Assembly (NCBI GenBank): GCA_040388535.1
Contig: JAZKBR010000001.1
Location: 420,821 to 484,820, forward strand
DNA length: 64,000 bases
Source of the DNA: Gemmatimonadota bacterium
GTDB lineage: Bacteria > Gemmatimonadota > Gemmatimonadetes > Gemmatimonadales > GWC2-71-9
Direction of reading: 5' to 3'
Numbering within the stretch: position 1 is the stretch's first letter; each line of letters opens with the position of its first letter. The notes below the pieces were generated by a model that worked only from the letters and a program-made list of their open reading frames with translations, was not told the DNA's origin and did not search any database. Of the stretch, positions 34-40,060 are shown in pieces. Made by a program: the position numbers and the translations under genes.

Positions 34-1305
34 CTAAAGCAGCACCGCGTTCCGCCGCGCCGCGCCGCGGTCTTGCTCGAGAGCATTGCGCGCGGCCCGG
101 CCGGCGCGATCGCACTCCATCGGATTTTCGAGCCAGCGGCACCACTGCTCCACCAGCGCAGCGACGGCGTTGTGCCGCGGGAGGCGGACCAGGCCACCGC
201 CGGCAGCCAGCATCGCGGCGTCGCGGCTGCCGCGGTCATTCGGGCCGATGATCACCGGCCGCGACCACGCGGCAGGCTCGAGCACTGAATGAATCCCGCG
301 GTGACCGAAGCCGCCGCCCACGTAGGCCATCGCACCCGCGGCATAGAGCTTCGAGAGCATCCCGACGCGATCGATCACGAGAATCTCCGGTTCGTCACCG
401 GGGGCAAGTGATGCGAGCGGCACTGGCGGGCGAAGCGCGCCCGGAACGAAGGCCGCTTCGATATCGAGCAGATGCGCGAGCGTGGGCTCGTGCGGCACCA
501 GCATCAGCCGGGCATCGGGAAAGCGCGCATGCACGTGACCCATTGCTTCCATCAAAATCTTTTCGTCTTCGGGCCAGGTGCTGCCGGCCACCAGGACATT
601 TTGTATCGGTCCCAGTTCGACCGGAACGGGTTCATTGCTCGCGGCCCACATCACTTCCAGAACAGAATCGATTCGCGGATCACCAGTCACGGTGACCTTT
701 TCGGGATCGCAGCCGAGGGCGATGAGCCGGGCGAGATCGGGCTCGGCGATTGCTCCGACAAAGTGGAGGGCGGCGTACCCCGGCGCGGTCAGCGATTGCG
801 ACGGCCAGCGCAGACGATTGCTGTCTGCCGAGACCGTGCCGGCCACCATCGAGACGCGACACCCCGCCGCAGCGGCCTGGGTCGCGAGTTCGGGCCAGAG
901 ATCGAGCTTGGTGAAGACGAGCAGATTCGGCCGTACAGCGCGCAGCACGCGCTGTACATCATCGGCCCGATCATAGGGCAGATATCCAGCCCACTCGGCG
1001 CCGATCGATGCCGCAAACGACTCGGCCGATGGCGAATAATGAGTGTAGATGATCTGGTCATTCGGGTTCAAGGTGCGATACGCCTCGAGCACCGCGCGCG
1101 CCTGCAATCCTTCACCCACCGATGACGCGTGGAACCAGGCCAGATCGCGGCTCATATCCCGATGCTGACTCGCCCACGCCTCGAGCGCTGCCGGCGTCGC
1201 CAGCCGAGCCGCGTGGGCTGCACGTTGCCGCGCGTCGCGCAATGCCAGCGGCACGAGTGGAACAGCGAAAGACGCGAACGCGCGATAGAGCGGAGAGGTG
1301 GGCAC
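34..1305 (-). CDS. kdtA: 3-deoxy-D-manno-octulosonic acid (Kdo) transferase
   Basis: A 423-residue protein that should transfer Kdo from CMP-Kdo to lipid A precursor at the inner face of the cytoplasmic membrane (LPS inner core). The GT30 signature HASSVGE lies at residues 59-65, with Glu65 the expected catalytic base. The CMP-binding half has the motif GGGF..GIHSVLEPAAW at about 330-347, followed by PVIIGPN. A hydrophobic stretch at residues 6-22 may be the membrane anchor. Length matches the family. It is the last leftward gene and has no visible LPS partner genes in the window. A G-rich tract lies just upstream of the start. Function is recognised from motifs with good confidence; the number of Kdo units added cannot be read from sequence. 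Confidence 0.9.
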   Translation of the reverse strand: MPTSPLYRAFASFAVPLVPLALRDARQRAAHAARLATPAALEAWASQHRDMSRDLAWFHASSVGEGLQARAVLEAYRTLNPNDQIIYTHYSPSAESFAASIGAEWAGYLPYDRADDVQRVLRAVRPNLLVFTKLDLWPELATQAAAAGCRVSMVAGTVSADSNRLRWPSQSLTAPGYAALHFVGAIAEPDLARLIALGCDPEKVTVTGDPRIDSVLEVMWAASNEPVPVELGPIQNVLVAGSTWPEDEKILMEAMGHVHARFPDARLMLVPHEPTLAHLLDIEAAFVPGALRPPVPLASLAPGDEPEILVIDRVGMLSKLYAAGAMAYVGGGFGHRGIHSVLEPAAWSRPVIIGPNDRGSRDAAMLAAGGGLVRLPRHNAVAALVEQWCRWLENPMECDRAGRAARNALEQDRGAARRNAVLL

Positions 1306-1364: not shown

Positions 1365-1455
1365 CCGGTGGTGCCGCGCTTGCGCGGCACCGGTCCCTGC
1401 CCCGCGACTGCTCTCGCTCAAGGGGCCCTCTGTGGTACCGCGCTCGCGCGCCACC
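1365..1455. repeat. REP-like palindrome pair (family 1) upstream of RAYT
   Basis: A full copy at 1365-1394 has left arm GGTGGTGCCGCGC and right arm GCGCGGCACCGGT around a 2-4 nt loop. A degenerate copy follows at about 1432-1455 (GTGGTACCGCGC...GCGCGCCACC). Ten copies of the family are visible in the window, and these two sit immediately before the transposase gene that probably recognises them. Confidence 0.8.
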
Positions 1456-1507
1456 CGTTGCGTTCGAAGCCTGCAGTCCTTCTGTCCCCTCGTCAGTCAA
1501 TTCCTCC

Positions 1508-1987
1508 ATGCCCATCGGCCGCCGACTCCCCGACTTCGACTATGCAACACCGGGATGGTACTTCGTCACGTGCGTTACCGAGGGGCGACGACAGTTGCTT
1601 GGCGAACTTGAAAAGGACGGCGTAGTGCTCAGTCGGATCGGCCGAGTCGTGGCGGATGAGTGGGAATCAACTCTCCGTGCCCGCTTCTGGATCAGCTGCA
1701 CCGCGTCGGTGGTCATGCCGGATCACTTCCACGCGCTCATTGGGTGGAACGACGTCCCGACAAATCGCTGTGGGACCCTCGGTGGGCTGATGGCTCATTT
1801 CAAAGGCAACTCAATTCGCCGCTTGCGCCGGGAGCGGTTGGTGGCGCCTTGGGAAACCATCTGGCACCGCCGGTATTGGGATCAGGTCATTCGAGGGCGT
1901 CGTCAACTCGAAGCGACCGCGCGGTATATCGAGAATAATCCGGCTCAAGCGTGGCTTCGTCGATCGCAGAGACCCGTGCCGCGCTAG
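1508..1987 (+). CDS. REP-associated tyrosine transposase (RAYT, TnpA-REP family)
   Basis: A 159-residue Y1-type HUH transposase. The motif VVMPDHFHALIGW carries the metal-binding His-x-His at residues 73 and 75. The likely nucleophilic tyrosine is Tyr140 in ARYIENNP, and HRRYWD (120-125) is also typical of RAYTs. RAYTs are domesticated IS200/IS605 relatives that cut single-stranded REP hairpins. Here the gene is bracketed by REP-like palindromes at 1365-1455 and 1973-2073, and its last codons and TAG stop lie inside the 1973 copy. There is no second ORF or IS-type end, so it reads as a single-copy REP-handling enzyme, not a self-mobile IS. Family assignment is firm; activity on these repeats is inferred. 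Confidence 0.9.
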   Translation: MPIGRRLPDFDYATPGWYFVTCVTEGRRQLLGELEKDGVVLSRIGRVVADEWESTLRARFWISCTASVVMPDHFHALIGWNDVPTNRCGTLGGLMAHFKGNSIRRLRRERLVAPWETIWHRRYWDQVIRGRRQLEATARYIENNPAQAWLRRSQRPVPR

Positions 1988-2073
1988 CGCGGCACCACCG
2001 ACGGGGTTCGGCGCGGGCGATCGGGGCCTTGGCGCGGCGCGACGACCGGTGCCGCGCGAGCGCGGCACCACCG
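1973..2073. repeat. REP-like palindrome pair (family 1) at the RAYT 3' end
   Basis: Two copies at 1973-2000 and 2045-2073, both in the orientation CCGGTGCCGCGC...GCGCGGCACCACCG and opposite to the copy at 1365. The loop of the first copy contains the TAG stop codon of the transposase. They also separate the transposase from the convergent permease gene. Confidence 0.85.
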
Positions 2074-2090
2074 ACGGGACGCTCGCGCGG

Positions 2091-4808
2091 TTACCCCTCC
2101 CTGAGCGCCACCGTCGGGTCGGTCGCGGCGGCACGCCGGGCCGGGAGCCAGGCGGCGAGCGTCGTCACCGACAACAACAGCACCGCCGCCGCGAGGTACG
2201 CCACCGGGTCGGTCGCACCGACGCCCACCAGGATCGCGCGCGTCAGTTGCGCGACACCGAGCGACGCAATCACGCCAATCAGCATCCCGACGCCGGTGAG
2301 CATCAGCCCCTCGCGCATCACGCCGCGCACCACATCGCCCGGGCGCGCGCCGATCGCGATCCGGATACCGATCTCGCGCGTCCGCTCGGCGACACCGAAC
2401 GCCACCACGCCGTAGAGTCCGACCACGGCCTGGATCAGCCCCAGCAAGCCGATCGCGACGGCGACGATGGCGGCAATCTTCGGAAAGAGGAAGGCGAGGC
2501 CGCCCTCCAGGTGCACCTGCATCGTACGCACATCGCCGACCGGCATATCGGGATCGAGCTCGTGGACCAGGCGCCGGATCGCGAGCATCGCGGCGGTCTC
2601 GTTGCCCGGGGCAAGCAGTTCGAGTGTCATCTGCGAGCGGTAGCGCTGCGCCATCGGCATGTAGAAGTACGGCTTCGGCGATTCGTTCACGAAGGTGTAT
2701 CGCCCGCTGCCCACCACCCCGACCACCGTGAACCACGCGCCGTCCTTCTCGAGACGGAACCGTCGGCCGAGGGCCGACGCCCCAGGCCAGTACTGCTTCG
2801 CCATCTGGGCATTGATCACGACCACCCGGTCAGCGCTGCTGTCATCACGGACAACGAAGTCGCGTCCTTCGAGGAGGCGGTAACCCAGCGTCGCGAAATA
2901 GTCCGGCGACACAACGTTGTAGCCGACACCAATCCGGTTGTCGGGAACCCCGATGTCGTGATCGAGATAGAGATCGTGCGAACTGTTGTTGTAACCGAGC
3001 GGGATATCTCGACTCAACGACGCCGACTTCACGCCGGGCAGGGCCCGCGCCTGGGCCAGCAAGTCGCGATAGAAGCGCTCGGTGCGGGGGCGGTCGTAGC
3101 GCAGGATCTCGGGATCGCTGGTCCCCATCACGACGCCAGCCGGACGGAAACCGAGGTCGAGCGTGGTGGCCGCCTGCACGGAGCGCGCAAAGAGCGCGGC
3201 ACACACCAGCAGCACGAAGGACACCGCGACCTGCGCCCCCACCAGCAGGGTGCGCGCGACCCTTCGCTTCTTCCCACCGCTGCCACCGCGTCCACCATCC
3301 TTGAGTGTTTCCTGCAAAGGCAACCGCGCAGCATGAAGCGCCGGCGCGATGCTGGTCAGCAGCGCGGCGATCACCGCAATGCCAAGTGCCACGGGGAGTA
3401 GCCCCCACGTCGGCTCGACCGAGAAGCGCACCGGGAAATCGGTCTCCATCCGGATGCTGCTGAACGACCGCAACATCAGCCAGGTCAGCGGCGCCGCGAA
3501 CACCAGGGCGAGCAGGGCCAGCACCATCGATTCAGTAACCACCAGTCGGACCATTCGCCCCGTCGTCGCACCGAGCGCACGACGCACCGCGATCTCACCG
3601 CGGCGGGCGGAGGCACGAGCCAGGAACAACCCGGCGACATTGGTACAACCGATCAGCAGCACCAGTCCGGTGAGCACCAGGAAGATCGCCGCCGCCCAGG
3701 GAATGATGCCGGACACGGCGATATCCGGCCGGGTGCGCGTCTCCCATTCAATCATCAACCGATGGCCCGGCGAGAGGTTGGCGTGCTCCTGCCGCTCCTG
3801 GGCGCTCAGCGTGACCAAGGCCGCGCGCGCGGCCGCGAGCGTGACGCCGGGTTTCAGCGTCGCCGCGACGCGTCCGTGCGAGTCGGCGGGAATGTTGCCG
3901 TCGCCACCGGTCAGCGCGAACTCGGTCGTGAACGGCAGGAAGCCCGAAGCGTGCAGCAGCGACTGTCGCATCCCGGCGTATCCGGGAGCCGCCACGCCGA
4001 TCACCTGGAACGGCACACCGTTGAATTGCACCTGCTTCCCGATCACATCGCTGGCACCCGCAAACCGCGACAGCCAGAACGCGTGAGTCAGCACGACGAC
4101 GCGAGCGCGCTCCGTCTCCTCCTGCTCGGTGTAGCCGCGACCAAGGAAGAGCGGCACGCCGAAGGCGCGGAAGTAGTTGCCGCTGGTAGTCTCGAACAGA
4201 TTCACCGTCGGCTCGGCACTGCCGACCCGGAGACTCAGCATCGTGTTGTCGAAATAGACCGCGTCATCGAAGAGATCAGTGCGGCTCTTGATGTCGCGAT
4301 AGTTGCTGTACCAGACGGAAGATGGCGTGGTGTTCGCGGCGCTCTGCTCGGCGACGACGACGAGCCGCTTCCCTTCCCTGAGCGGCAACGGTCGGAAGAG
4401 ATAGCCATCGACCAGCGCCCACACGGCGAGCGTGGCCGCGATGCCGAGGGCGAGGGCGAACGCCGCCGTGAGGGCAAACGCGGGGCGATGCCAGAGCGAG
4501 CGCACCGCGAGGCGGAGGTCCTGCCGGAAGTCGATCATCTGTTCCATCCTGGTGACGGCGCGCTCGCGTCGAGAGGCGAGCTGGGTGCATTCGTGGCTGA
4601 TCTGGCGGACGCTGCCGAAGCGTTCGGTGGCCGCGCGGTGTGCCGCGTCGGGCGTGAGCCCGCGGGCGCGATAGTCGGCCTCGCGCATTTCGAGATGGAA
4701 AGCGAGTTCGGCGTCGACGTCGGCGCCGCTGTCGCGCCGGAAGAGCGAGCGCAAGCGACGCCACGCCGCACCGCCAGCGCCGCGCAGCTCTTCGCGCTCA
4801 GGCGACAT
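2091..4808 (-). CDS. ADOP-type FtsX/MacB-like permease
   Basis: A 905-residue ABC-type permease of the duplicated kind. It has an N-terminal permease-prefix region (ELAFHLEMREADYRARG), a transmembrane segment near residue 100, a MacB-like periplasmic core, and two FtsX permease halves (VLLIGCTNVAGLFLARASAR and a C-terminal block ending ATDPTVALREG). No ATPase gene is adjacent, which is usual for ADOP orphans. The ATG at 4808 is chosen because it overlaps the padR stop by 11 bp and begins the conserved prefix domain; the longer frame from 4931 runs through padR in another register. Substrate unknown. It probably forms a translationally coupled operon with the PadR regulator. Confidence 0.88.
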   Translation of the reverse strand: MSPEREELRGAGGAAWRRLRSLFRRDSGADVDAELAFHLEMREADYRARGLTPDAAHRAATERFGSVRQISHECTQLASRRERAVTRMEQMIDFRQDLRLAVRSLWHRPAFALTAAFALALGIAATLAVWALVDGYLFRPLPLREGKRLVVVAEQSAANTTPSSVWYSNYRDIKSRTDLFDDAVYFDNTMLSLRVGSAEPTVNLFETTSGNYFRAFGVPLFLGRGYTEQEETERARVVVLTHAFWLSRFAGASDVIGKQVQFNGVPFQVIGVAAPGYAGMRQSLLHASGFLPFTTEFALTGGDGNIPADSHGRVAATLKPGVTLAAARAALVTLSAQERQEHANLSPGHRLMIEWETRTRPDIAVSGIIPWAAAIFLVLTGLVLLIGCTNVAGLFLARASARRGEIAVRRALGATTGRMVRLVVTESMVLALLALVFAAPLTWLMLRSFSSIRMETDFPVRFSVEPTWGLLPVALGIAVIAALLTSIAPALHAARLPLQETLKDGGRGGSGGKKRRVARTLLVGAQVAVSFVLLVCAALFARSVQAATTLDLGFRPAGVVMGTSDPEILRYDRPRTERFYRDLLAQARALPGVKSASLSRDIPLGYNNSSHDLYLDHDIGVPDNRIGVGYNVVSPDYFATLGYRLLEGRDFVVRDDSSADRVVVINAQMAKQYWPGASALGRRFRLEKDGAWFTVVGVVGSGRYTFVNESPKPYFYMPMAQRYRSQMTLELLAPGNETAAMLAIRRLVHELDPDMPVGDVRTMQVHLEGGLAFLFPKIAAIVAVAIGLLGLIQAVVGLYGVVAFGVAERTREIGIRIAIGARPGDVVRGVMREGLMLTGVGMLIGVIASLGVAQLTRAILVGVGATDPVAYLAAAVLLLSVTTLAAWLPARRAAATDPTVALREG

Positions 4809-5139
4809 CGGGCGTCGCCTCGAATGCCTTGAAGATCGCCCGCGCAAACATGGTGAAGTTGTGGGTCTCGGCCTTGAGCTGGGTGCGGCCCGCGCGGGTG
4901 AGCTTGTAGAAGCGAGCCTTCCGGCCGGCATCGGAGACGCCCCATTCGCTCTCGACCCAGCCGCGACGCTCGAGACGATAGAGCGCCGGGTAGAGCGACC
5001 CTTCCTCGATCCGAAGCGCGTCGTCGGTCACGCTCTCGATCCAGCGGGCCACGCCATAGCCGTGAGTAGGGCCCCAGGTCAGGGCCTTGAGGACCAGCGC
5101 GTCGAGCGCGCCGCGAAGGAGGGTGACGGTATCGGCCAC
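4798..5139 (-). CDS. PadR-family transcriptional regulator
   Basis: A 113-residue winged-helix protein. It has the PadR hallmark LDALVLKALTWGPTHGYGVA followed by IEEGSLYPALYRLERRGWV (recognition helix and wing) and a basic YKLTRAGRTQL segment. GTG start. It precedes and overlaps the ADOP permease gene, an arrangement repeated at 41.2 kb with a paralogous pair. PadR proteins usually repress their own operon until a ligand binds. An inverted repeat at 5149-5163, 10-24 bp upstream of the start, is the natural operator candidate. Identity is clear; ligand and target are not. Confidence 0.9.
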   Translation of the reverse strand: MADTVTLLRGALDALVLKALTWGPTHGYGVARWIESVTDDALRIEEGSLYPALYRLERRGWVESEWGVSDAGRKARFYKLTRAGRTQLKAETHNFTMFARAIFKAFEATPDVA

Positions 5140-5148
5140 GGGGCTTCC

Positions 5149-5163
5149 CTTAGAGAGTCTAGG
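5149..5163. promoter_or_regulatory. Candidate PadR operator
   Basis: CTTAGA-N3-TCTAGG, an imperfect inverted repeat just upstream of the padR GTG. A related palindrome, TAAGA-C-TCTTA, lies upstream of the second padR at 41131-41141. On the coding strands both contain AGACTCT. Confidence 0.4.
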
Positions 5164-5195
5164 GGAGAGTACGGGGAGGCGATACCTAGGGTTTC

Positions 5196-5220
5196 AGGGG
5201 GAGACGGGGAGGCGGGGGAG
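5196..5220 (+). repeat. G-rich tract (possible G-quadruplex)
   Basis: GGGGG, GGGG and GGGGG runs separated by 3-5 nt, between padR and the repeat pair. G-rich on the strand that is template for padR. Confidence 0.4.
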
Positions 5221-5225
5221 AATGA

Positions 5226-5360
5226 CGGTGGTGCCGCGCTCGCGCGGCACCGGTCTTCGCCTTCAACCAGACACGGCCTCAAGCGAGGCGGTAGTTCGTC
5301 AGTTCAAGGGGAACTTGGTGCAAATCGGAAACCGGTGCCGCCCAAGGGCGGCACCACCGG
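5226..5360. repeat. Inverted pair of REP-like palindromes (family 1)
   Basis: Forward copy at 5226-5254 and reverse copy at 5331-5360, head to head about 76 bp apart. The second copy has compensating arm changes (GCCGCCC/GGGCGGC), which keeps the hairpin. The arrangement resembles enterobacterial BIMEs and the pair at 8365-8464. It fills most of the 5140-5399 gap; no gene is seen there. Confidence 0.85.
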
Positions 5361-5399: not shown

Positions 5400-6038
5400 T
5401 CAGGGCTGAAACCCCACCCCGAACGAGAGAATCGACGGCTTCACCCCGCTGTACGACATCCGGTCATAGGCGGCGCGGATCGAGATTCCGCTCAGCAGCG
5501 TCAGATCGATCCCGCCGCTGATGCCGAAATGCGAATCGGTGCCGGTCGTGATGTTGCAGCAATCGATGTTCGGGTGTCGCAGGATGTCGATCCGCGGCGC
5601 GACCCATGGCTTGATCGAAATCCCCGGGGACGGAATCGTCGCGGCAATGCCGAGCGAGATCGGAACATGGGTGTACTTGTAGTCCCCGATAGACCAGTGC
5701 GACACTCCGGCCTGCACCATCACCCGGAGCGGAATCAGCGGGCCGCCGAAGATGCGCAGCGAGCCGCTCACGCCAGGTGCCCACACGCCGTCGCCCACTT
5801 TGGGATTGTAGCGCGCGATGGTGCCGGTGACACCGAAGAAGCCGAGACCGACCGACGCACTCGCGCCGACGGTGGTGGCCTTGCCGGCATCGGCGTTCGA
5901 GAAGCCGGCGTCGACAGCGAGGTTGATGCCGGTCGGCACGCCGTTATTCACGACGGGAAGGCCGAGCGACTGGGCGGCGGCTGGGGCGGAAACGAGCGCG
6001 CCCCCGAGCAGCGAGAGCACGAGGGCGCGAGAAAACAT
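5400..6038 (-). CDS. Secreted protein, probable outer-membrane beta-barrel
   Basis: 212 residues with a clear signal peptide (MFSRALVLSLLGGALVSAPAAAQ, split after AAAQ). The mature part is glycine- and aromatic-rich with alternating hydrophobic strands, such as GVTGTIARYNPKVGDG and GISIRAAYDRMSY, and ends in an aromatic-containing strand (SFGVGFQP), as outer-membrane barrels do. The ATG has a good AGGAG site 8 nt upstream. It lies 16 bp after another barrel-like gene, downstream of the atp genes, so it may be co-transcribed with them. No named family recognised; barrel prediction is inference from composition and pattern. Confidence 0.65.
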   Translation of the reverse strand: MFSRALVLSLLGGALVSAPAAAQSLGLPVVNNGVPTGINLAVDAGFSNADAGKATTVGASASVGLGFFGVTGTIARYNPKVGDGVWAPGVSGSLRIFGGPLIPLRVMVQAGVSHWSIGDYKYTHVPISLGIAATIPSPGISIKPWVAPRIDILRHPNIDCCNITTGTDSHFGISGGIDLTLLSGISIRAAYDRMSYSGVKPSILSFGVGFQP

Positions 6039-6916: not shown

Positions 6917-8464
<1,548 letters not shown>

Positions 8465-12400: not shown

Positions 12401-12560
12401 TCACCCTGAACGAAGTGAGGGGACAAAGTGTCGCTGTCGCCCTGAGCGCAGCGAGGGGGCGGAGCATGGTACCGCGGCGATGCCTTGCCCCCTCGCTTTG
12501 CTCAGGGCGACAACCTCACATCGGCGCTCCGCCCCCTCGCTACGCTCAGGGCGACAACTA
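12401..12560. repeat. Family 2 palindromic repeat cluster
   Basis: Four units with core CCCTGAGCG-CAGCGAGGG (or CCCTGAACGAAGTGAGGG), two in each orientation, forming a long potential hairpin centred near 12475. The right edge touches the TAG of mlaD. The unit TTGTCGCCCTGAGCGNAGCG followed by AGGGGGCGGAGC recurs in nine clusters in the left 44 kb. Position between the nudix gene and mlaD suggests a terminator or REP-like role. Confidence 0.85.
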
Positions 12561-16017: not shown

Positions 16018-16047
16018 ACCGGTGCCGCCCAAGGGCGGCACCGCCGG
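16018..16047. repeat. Single REP-like palindrome (family 1)
   Basis: ACCGGTGCCGCCC...GGGCGGCACCGCCGG, the same compensated arm variant as at 5331-5360, just downstream of the sigma factor stop. Confidence 0.85.
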
Positions 16048-24239: not shown

Positions 24240-24425
24240 AGTGTCGCCCTGAGCGCAGCGAGGGGGCGGAGTGCCGATCAAAGGCTGTCGCCATGAACGC
24301 AGTGAGGGGGCGGAATGCCGATCAAAGGCTGTCGCCCTGAGCGTAGCGAGGGGGCGGAACATGGAACCGCAACGATGCCTTGCCCCCTCACTTCGTTCAG
24401 GGTGACAACGCTCAGGGTGACAACT
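24240..24425. repeat. Family 2 repeat cluster
   Basis: Four to five units (CCCTGAGCGCAGCGAGGG, CATGAACGCAGTGAGGG, CCCTGAGCGTAGCGAGGG, then inverted CCCTCACTTCGTTCAGGG plus a half unit) fill the gap between trmL and the GIY-YIG gene. The last half unit encodes the end of the GIY-YIG protein. Confidence 0.88.
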
Positions 24426-24717
24426 GATCCCACCCCCACTCGACGCTCAGGTCCCGCCACTCCGGGTTACTCGCCTCAATCAGTTCAAGCTTTCGGATGC
24501 GCTTCCACCGCTTCAATTCCTTCTCCCTTCGGATCGCGTCCATGATCGTCGTCGCTGCTTCGACGAGCACCAGTCGATGGATTCCGTGTTCACGAACATG
24601 AACCGATCCCTCACCGCTCCGATGCTGCTGCCACCGCCTGCAGGGGTTGGCCGTGACTCCGATGTAGAGCTCGCGTGAATCGCTCGCGAGGATGTAGACG
24701 TATCCGGTTTTGGGCAT
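24412..24717 (-). CDS. GIY-YIG nuclease-domain protein
   Basis: 101 residues, a stand-alone GIY-YIG domain: GYVYILASDSRELYIGVTAN (the GIY...YIG pair), RRWQQHRSGEGSVHV and the conserved Glu in IRREKELKRWKRIRK. These single-domain proteins (UPF0213/YhbQ-like) have Arg and Glu active-site residues and are often annotated as endonucleases of unknown role. The C-terminal Gln-Leu-Ser-Pro-stop is read from a family 2 repeat. Isolated between two repeat clusters. Confidence 0.9.
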   Translation of the reverse strand: MPKTGYVYILASDSRELYIGVTANPCRRWQQHRSGEGSVHVREHGIHRLVLVEAATTIMDAIRREKELKRWKRIRKLELIEASNPEWRDLSVEWGWDQLSP

Positions 24718-24785
24718 GCGGGAGGGTATGCGCGGTCATCAAGACTGCGGAGCCTGGAGACTGCGGAGAGGGGCTCCATTTTGCG

Positions 24786-25072
24786 AGTCGCCCTGAACGA
24801 AGTGAGGGGGCGGAGCTTGGCACCACAGCAATGCCTTGCCCCCTCACTTCGCTCAGGGTGACAGCACCTAAGGTGAGCCTTGCCCCCTCGCTGCGCTCAG
24901 GGCGACAGCACCAAAGGTGAGCCTTGCCCCCTCGCCACGCTCAGGGTGACAGCACCTAAGGTGAGCCTTGCCCCCTCGCTACGCTCAGGGCGACAGCACT
25001 AAAGGTGAGCTCCGCCCCCTCACTTCGTTCAGGGTGACAGCTCCGTCCCCTCGCTGCGCTCAGGGCGACAAC
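24786..25072. repeat. Family 2 repeat cluster, largest array
   Basis: About seven units in 290 bp, mostly in the orientation CCCTCGCTNCGCTCAGGG, several joined by GACAGCACCTAAGGTGAGCC spacers that are themselves near-identical, so part of the array grew by local duplication of a roughly 60-bp unit. No gene lies between 24718 and 25121. Confidence 0.88.
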
Positions 25073-27107: not shown

Positions 27108-27390
27108 AGTCGCCCTGAACGAAGTGAGGGGGCGGAGGGCCGAATCAAGGTTGTCGCCCTGAACGAAGTGAGGGGGCGGAGGGCCGAATCCAGGTTGTCG
27201 CCCTGAACGAAGTGAGGGGGCGGAGAGCCGAATCAAGGTTGTCGCCCTGAACGAAGTGAGGGGGCGGAACATGGAACCGCCGCGATGCCTTGCCCCCTCG
27301 CTGCGCTCAGGGCGACAACACTTGGGGTGAGCTCCGCCCCCTCGCTGCGCTCAGGGCGACAGCGCTCAGGGCGACAAGGCTCAGGGTGAC
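27108..27390. repeat. Family 2 repeat cluster
   Basis: Four near-identical forward units of about 43 bp (CGCCCTGAACGAAGTGAGGG followed by GGCGGAGGGCCGAATCNAGG) in direct tandem, then inverted CCCTCGCTGCGCTCAGGG units. The tandem part is a recent amplification. It occupies the gap between the unknown secreted protein and pepX. Confidence 0.9.
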
Positions 27391-40029: not shown

Positions 40030-40060
40030 ACCGGTGCCGCGCAAGCGCGGCACCACCGGT
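40030..40060. repeat. Single REP-like palindrome (family 1)
   Basis: ACCGGTGCCGCGC...GCGCGGCACCACCGG upstream of the zinc-ribbon membrane gene. Last copy of the family going rightward. Confidence 0.88.

Follow-up and report, generated by a model that had tools for sequence, protein, structure and literature searches.

The window analysed here, a stretch of 64,000 nucleotides from a Gemmatimonadota genome, contains a gene for a RAYT (TnpA-REP) transposase of the HUH-Y1 type (positions 1508 to 1987, plus strand; 159 amino acids), identified by its Y1_Tnp and NF047646 profile matches, by alignment and by fold. Four hairpin-forming palindromes (REPs), each with a 5' GTGG foot, lie around the gene with their feet pointing outward on both sides. 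On the left, a plus-strand REP with the exact consensus GTGG-TGCCGCGC-TT-GCGCGGCA-CCGG (1368 to 1393) is followed by a decayed REP of the same orientation that carries three mismatches (1432 to 1457), and on the right two minus-strand REPs were located at 1973 to 1998 and, with the exact consensus, at 2046 to 2071. All coordinates given by the initial annotation, which had described a single RAYT gene between two pairs of palindromes, proved to be correct. The hairpins share one orientation on each side of the gene (++ RAYT --), whereas pairs elsewhere are inverted (+-). As an unusual detail, the stop codon of the RAYT gene (TAG, 1985 to 1987) is part of the loop of the REP at 1973 to 1998.

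The Pfam profile Y1_Tnp matched the RAYT with an E-value of 1.2e-5, and the best NCBIfam family was REP_Tyr_transpos (NF047646; 9e-19), with a score of 67.8 bits that falls below the equivalog cut-off of 80 bits, a database threshold and not a biological criterion. The score against transpos_IS200 was 15.8 bits, also below the respective cut-off of 55. As shown by alignment, the protein carries DHFH at residues 72-75, WH at 119-120 and Tyr140 inside the motif YIENNP; among 43 homologues, His73 and His75 of the HUH motif were invariant and Tyr140 nearly so. With the HxH motif and the catalytic tyrosine both intact, the protein is a member of the HUH-Y1 nucleases. The best PDB fold match of its AlphaFold model (pLDDT 90) was 4er8, the E. 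coli TnpA-REP in complex with a REP hairpin (E 1.1e-7), which was also found in a profile search (E 3.7e-7), and a single-protein phmmer search against the PDB gave no match.

At the site that contacts the foot (W119-H120) the window RAYT shows WH where most RAYTs show WQ, and it thus lacks the WQ that characterizes subclasses 2.4, 2.5 and 2.7. Since subclass 2.8 has W[YH] as its key motif and subclass 2.2 has WE (PMC6006769), WQ does not define the RAYT family as a whole. The motifs of the protein combine those tabulated for subclasses 2.5 (DHFH), 2.8 (WH) and 2.4 (YIxNNP) (PMC6006769), and because of this mixture we assigned it to no subclass. Its branch in the tree is very long and joins no supported kin or clade, the top identity being 38%. 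The 3.72-Mb genome encodes exactly one RAYT, and no TnpB-like gene was seen adjoining it. Searches of viral contigs returned no relatives, and those of plasmids and of phages one weak match each, so that there is no sign of recent carriage of the RAYT by a phage or plasmid. The gene has probably been kept as a domesticated single-copy gene rather than as an insertion sequence.

The REP population

On the tagged strand the element reads (C/T)G-GTGG-TGCCGC[G/C]C-TN-G[G/C]GCGGCA-CCGG-T. Its core, GGTGCCGCGCNNGCGCGGCACC, was matched with up to three mismatches 10 times in the window, against 0.03 matches expected from dinucleotide shuffles; across the 3.72-Mb genome there were 76 matches, and a reversed control gave 4. 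With the tag-oriented 26-mer GTGGTGCCGCSCTNGSGCGGCACCGG we obtained 53 copies genome-wide (28 of them exact, that is, identical across the fixed positions) and none with the reversed control. These 53 REPs, about 49 of which are situated away from the RAYT gene, are spread over 32 genomic sites; the count is a lower bound, as 10-N assembly gaps fall in or beside REPs (G000 C1:420811-420820, C2:213073 and C9:7727), and it is modest compared with the more than 100 copies that are usual for REPs (PMC2817692). One RAYT and 53 REPs are what the genome-wide search adds to the REP/RAYT interpretation proposed in the initial annotation, which it supports.

The foot is exactly GTGG in 42 of the 53 REPs, and 47 have CTTG or CTCG as the loop tetramer; the first stem bases are conserved as well. 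Canonical REPs are recognised by GT[AG]G at the hairpin foot (PMC6006769), and REPs with GTAG or GTGG have been tabulated (PMC2817692). At stem position 11/16 the pair is G..C in 39 REPs, C..G in 13 and broken in only 1, a swap with retained pairing that bears out the compensated arm mutations noted in the initial annotation. The fold of a single REP hairpin had a z-score of -3.6.

Neighbouring REPs form 15 inverted '+-' pairs with the feet outward and no '-+' pair with the feet inward, and 18 REPs are single and unpaired. The spacing from centre to centre is 68-70 bp in 9 of the 15 inverted pairs, the typical REPIN measuring about 95 bp, and in these nine pairs the parts of the interior next to the REPs (GGTCTTCG..CGAAGACC) are shared in part. 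Such an inverted doublet is the replicating unit in the REPIN architecture (PMC3116915). As for placement, only 1 of 59 scored copies was inside a predicted gene and 8 were at gene edges, although coding sequence makes up 84% of these stretches according to the simple codon-usage gene finder from which the gene calls were taken.

REPs were also located at the further sites that had been listed for the window (5226, 5331, 8365, 8435, 16018 and 40030). A REPIN of 130 bp from foot to foot at 5226 to 5359 consists of a '+' REP (5228-5253) and a '-' REP (5332-5357), the latter with a compensated GCCC..GGGC stem, and its fold as single-stranded DNA had a z-score of -7.5 relative to shuffles. The atpD-atpG spacer holds a REPIN of the modal size of 95 bp foot to foot (8365 to 8463; REPs at 8367-8392 and 8436-8461), with a corresponding z-score of -7.7. 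Two single REPs on the minus strand, one with the foot GCGG and a GCCC..GGGC stem (16019 to 16044) and one with the exact consensus (40031 to 40056), complete the set. In most congeners the atpD-atpG spacer is occupied by a different, species-specific inverted array of short units (L199, L201, L202 and L204). We considered this spacer as proof of an empty site and rejected it, the congener spacers being filled with unrelated repeats and offering no clean empty site.

A longer element, GTAGGCTNTTGCTCCTATG-TGGGTGCCGCGCTCGCGCGGCACC, has the same palindrome core with a different conserved 5' flank and occurs in about seven copies (G000 C2:493616, 523004 and 593364; C7:97740, 97840 and 105401; C8:146775; loci L135, L136, L155, L146, L147 and L149); it may derive from a REP and carry a second GTAG hairpin. 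Contig C4 of the same genome (610,637 bp) has no REPs (P about 0.003 for 32 sites), and neither 7-bp arrays nor CCTGAGCG elements were seen in the 60 kb of it that were sampled, whereas every other contig sampled, C6 and the masked C11 apart, has 7-bp arrays. C4 may represent a replicon of its own or come from another source.

REP types in relatives and in known systems

A palindrome equally frequent in relatives that lack a RAYT would speak against a REP/RAYT pair. Among 80 relatives, the palindrome type of the window remained at control level (0-3 copies) with or without a RAYT, except in G005, which has 14 palindromes and no RAYT found in its genome. We rejected the latter as counter-evidence, since they belong to a different element, CGCGTAAACGCG-GGTGCCGCAC..GTGCGGCACC-TGTGGGGG, without a 5' GTGG foot. 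The G005 repeat, CGCGTAAACGCG-GGTGCCGCACACGTGCGGCACC-TGTGGGGG (L037-L042), comprises two adjacent hairpins.

RAYTs elsewhere in the order carry hairpin types of their own, many of them GT[AG]G-footed, and the nearest RAYTs, from Myxococcota and Chloroflexota, also have their own hairpins (GTAGAGACG..). The two types for which co-occurrence in relatives was analysed both track the presence of a RAYT. GTAG-GGCGCGGAT reaches 78 and 73 copies in the only two genomes whose RAYTs it flanks and at most one copy elsewhere, and GTAGGGGC is present at five or more copies in 7 of 12 RAYT genomes versus 4 of 69 others (Fisher p = 6e-5). Five genomes have the GTAGGGGC type without a strong RAYT match (two of them with weak matches, two less than 85% complete), and so type and RAYT are associated but not inseparable. 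The type matrix showed one REP type per RAYT, and the RAYT of the window is single-copy in its genome. Long in-frame insertions were observed in the RAYTs of G034 (L031), G057 (L034) and G059 (L035); that of G034 reads through REP sequence and yields GVGAQHAAPL, a feature reported from subclass 2.4.

The E. coli TnpA-REP with its BIME/REP elements (4er8; subclass 2.2) resembles the window system in the HUH-Y1 fold, the GTRG foot, the inverted flanking REPs and the presence of one gene per genome; sequence identity is, however, 20%, the stem here is perfect and without a bulge, the foot is GTGG instead of GTAG and the foot-contacting site is WH instead of WQ. With the group 3 RAYTs of Pseudomonas and Stenotrophomonas (subclass 2.5) it has in common a short protein (median of 151 amino acids versus 159 here), a DH[LF]H motif, a GTGG or GTAG foot, a perfect stem with a CTTG-type loop, and the REPIN spacing (71 bp for SBW25 GI; 68-70 bp between centres in the present genome). 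In contrast to these systems, its host lineage is another and its copies are fewer, its tyrosine motif is YIENNP, which resembles subclass 2.4, instead of YI[VI]ANP, and it again has WH and not WQ. Subclass 2.4 RAYTs, from various phyla, share the YIxNNP motif. The relatives in the order (G034, G057 and G059) are longer proteins with the in-frame insertions mentioned above, whereas the protein of the window lacks a REP insertion and shows DHFH and not NH[IFV]H. CGTC-tagged REPs are likewise short tagged palindromes, often in inverted doublets; here, however, the foot is GTGG and the repeats flank a transposase gene.

That such a system occurs outside the gammaproteobacteria, as initially suggested, was supported: the gene content of the genome, with 33 permeases of the ADOP type and best plasmid matches from Gemmatirosa, points to Gemmatimonadota; a 16S gene was looked for in the assembly and not found. 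The implied surprise is limited by earlier reports from several phyla: GTAG- and CGTC-tagged REPs have been reported from 8 phyla (PMC3733652), and RAYTs are known from many phyla, with TnpA-REP genes in more than 25% of the species analysed (PMC6006769). Gemmatimonadetes are not mentioned in PMC3733652, PMC6006769 or PMC2817692, and our literature search found no paper dealing with both Gemmatimonadetes and RAYTs and no description of REP/RAYT systems for the lineage. The results extend a well-defined REP/RAYT pair to an under-described lineage. Within this one order, several RAYTs each have a cognate REP type of their own, which makes them a natural panel for studying how the foot is read, and in the window a GTGG foot is paired with His where most RAYTs have Gln. 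A simple finder detected no GTGG-footed locus with which WH could be correlated among 80 RAYT loci of other phyla, in a scan biased to WQR.

Interpretation of the RAYT and its palindromes

Collectively, the anatomy of the locus, the copy number, the inverted pairs with their preferred spacing, the position of most copies between genes, the stems with compensated changes, the agreement in fold and motifs and the confinement of the palindrome to the RAYT genome argue that this is very probably a REP/RAYT system ('REPtron') of the ordinary kind. Speaking against this reading are the NCBIfam score below the cut-off, WH in place of WQ, the isolated position of the protein in the tree, the modest copy number, the fact that no polymorphic insertion or excision was seen, and the draft state of the host genome, in which N gaps fall at or close to REPs. 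The 53 hairpin copies are most likely the DNA that the RAYT moves, and what moves as a unit is most likely the REPIN, a pair of inverted REPs with outward feet that spans about 95 bp. By homology with the enzymes of E. coli, S. maltophilia and Marinomonas, from which we infer single-stranded DNA cleavage, the guiding role of the foot and mobilisation, the single-copy RAYT would bind the GTGG-footed hairpin as single-stranded DNA, would cut near it using Tyr140 and the DHFH metal site and would move REPs or REPINs in trans, the single strands presumably being exposed at replication or transcription. Characterised TnpA-REP proteins cut single-stranded REP DNA at CT or CA with the foot as guide (PMC8266576).

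Hairpins that lie in gene spacers, many of them convergent or tandem, could also be transcription terminators or mRNA-processing stem-loops spread by ordinary selection, with the RAYT as an unrelated neighbour, and the REPIN in the atpD-atpG spacer, where congeners hold other inverted repeats, would fit such a role. We consider this highly improbable, given that terminators do not have in common 26 bp of sequence, an asymmetric foot, a constant inverted pairing and a preferred spacing, that the REPs have no T tract and are missing from congeners with orthologous spacers, and that they are found on both sides of the RAYT. Equally remote is an insertion sequence of the IS200/IS605 type with its derivatives, in which gene and flanking hairpins would move as a unit. 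Such elements have the HUH-Y1 fold and end hairpins in common with the window locus, and five congeners lack, at this place, the stretch from the first to the last REP (1366 to 5359). The gene is, however, present once in the genome and not in multiple near-identical copies, it scores 67.8 bits with REP_Tyr_transpos against 15.8 with transpos_IS200, it has YIENNP in place of Y[IV]ENQ as its tyrosine motif, no TnpB-like gene was seen alongside, and some 49 REPs lie away from it.

The RAYT might also be a dead relic and the REPs an old population that no longer moves, a reading with which the decay of one flanking REP, the 18 single REPs, the long branch (consistent with relaxed constraint) and WH in place of WQ would agree. 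An intact open reading frame with all catalytic residues, 28 REPs that are identical at the fixed positions of the 26-mer and a confident protein model make it unlikely.

The neighbourhood of the RAYT gene and other repeats

To the left of the RAYT gene lies kdtA/waaA, the gene for a Kdo transferase (34 to 1305, minus strand; Pfam Glycos_transf_N 4e-34), and to its right, in one island with the RAYT, lie genes for a MacB/FtsX permease of the ADOP type (2091 to 4931, minus strand; Pfam) and a PadR-type regulator (4798 to 5139, minus strand; Pfam PadR 4e-20). Positions 1 to 8 of the window are the right end (foot CACCACCG) of a minus-strand REP, cut by a 10-N gap at -9 to 0, which is the right half of a REPIN that starts at about -89. 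The kdtA gene is bracketed by a '-' REP on the left (end at 8) and a '+' REP on the right (1368), a geometry that would allow inversion by recombination.

Synteny showed that kdtA is inverted relative to five congeners. In four of them (G001, G004, G006 and G009) it adjoins the gene found at 5400 in the window, in opposite orientation and with no island between, and in G005, where its orientation is also opposite, 2.7 kb of unrelated DNA lie between the two. In the window a 4-kb stretch with the RAYT, the permease, the PadR regulator and REPs separates the flipped kdtA from the gene at 5400, and homology to the congeners restarts at about 5388, 30 bp past the last REP. A scaffolding error was considered as the source of the flip: the right side is gap-free, the window having no N, and the left junction crosses the 10-N gap in the REP, so that the flip relative to the left-hand neighbour is putative.

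The island of RAYT and permease is absent at this place in the five congeners. A search with the permease gave 33 matches in its own genome and nothing above 37% identity in the congeners, its best plasmid matches are from Gemmatirosa, and the PadR regulator had no match in the congener stretches. The missing island and the lack of a closer permease relative in the congeners lend support to the idea that the outermost outward REPs (1368 and 5357) bound a composite of RAYT, ABC permease and PadR regulator that moved in whole, next to a kdtA gene flipped between its bracketing REPs; we nevertheless regard this as quite improbable. If it were true, REPs would mobilise or rearrange genes, beyond REPINs alone. 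The kdtA inversion together with the RAYT-permease island gives reason to ask whether gene order is reshaped by REPs.

Among the short repeats of the window, 7-bp tandem arrays dominate (10 of 19 TRF repeats; 11829, 15037, 15127, 15799, 17606, 17666, 36881, 38264, 38686 and 40081, spanning 11829-40105), and inverted pairs occur among them (17606/17694 and 36885/36977). A second inverted-pair element, TGTCGCCCTGAGCGMAGCGAGGGGGCGGA, for whose core the literature search found no paper containing it, has a REPIN-like layout with arms of about 30 bp, usually 60-70 bp apart, and contains a GCGAAGC-like mini-hairpin sequence. About 32 of its cores lie in the window (12435-41050), for example at 12435/12556, 15062/15123, 23629/23758, 24242-25070, 27109-27361, 29427/29548 and 40990/41050, whereas about 260 kb sampled from other parts of the genome contained 3.
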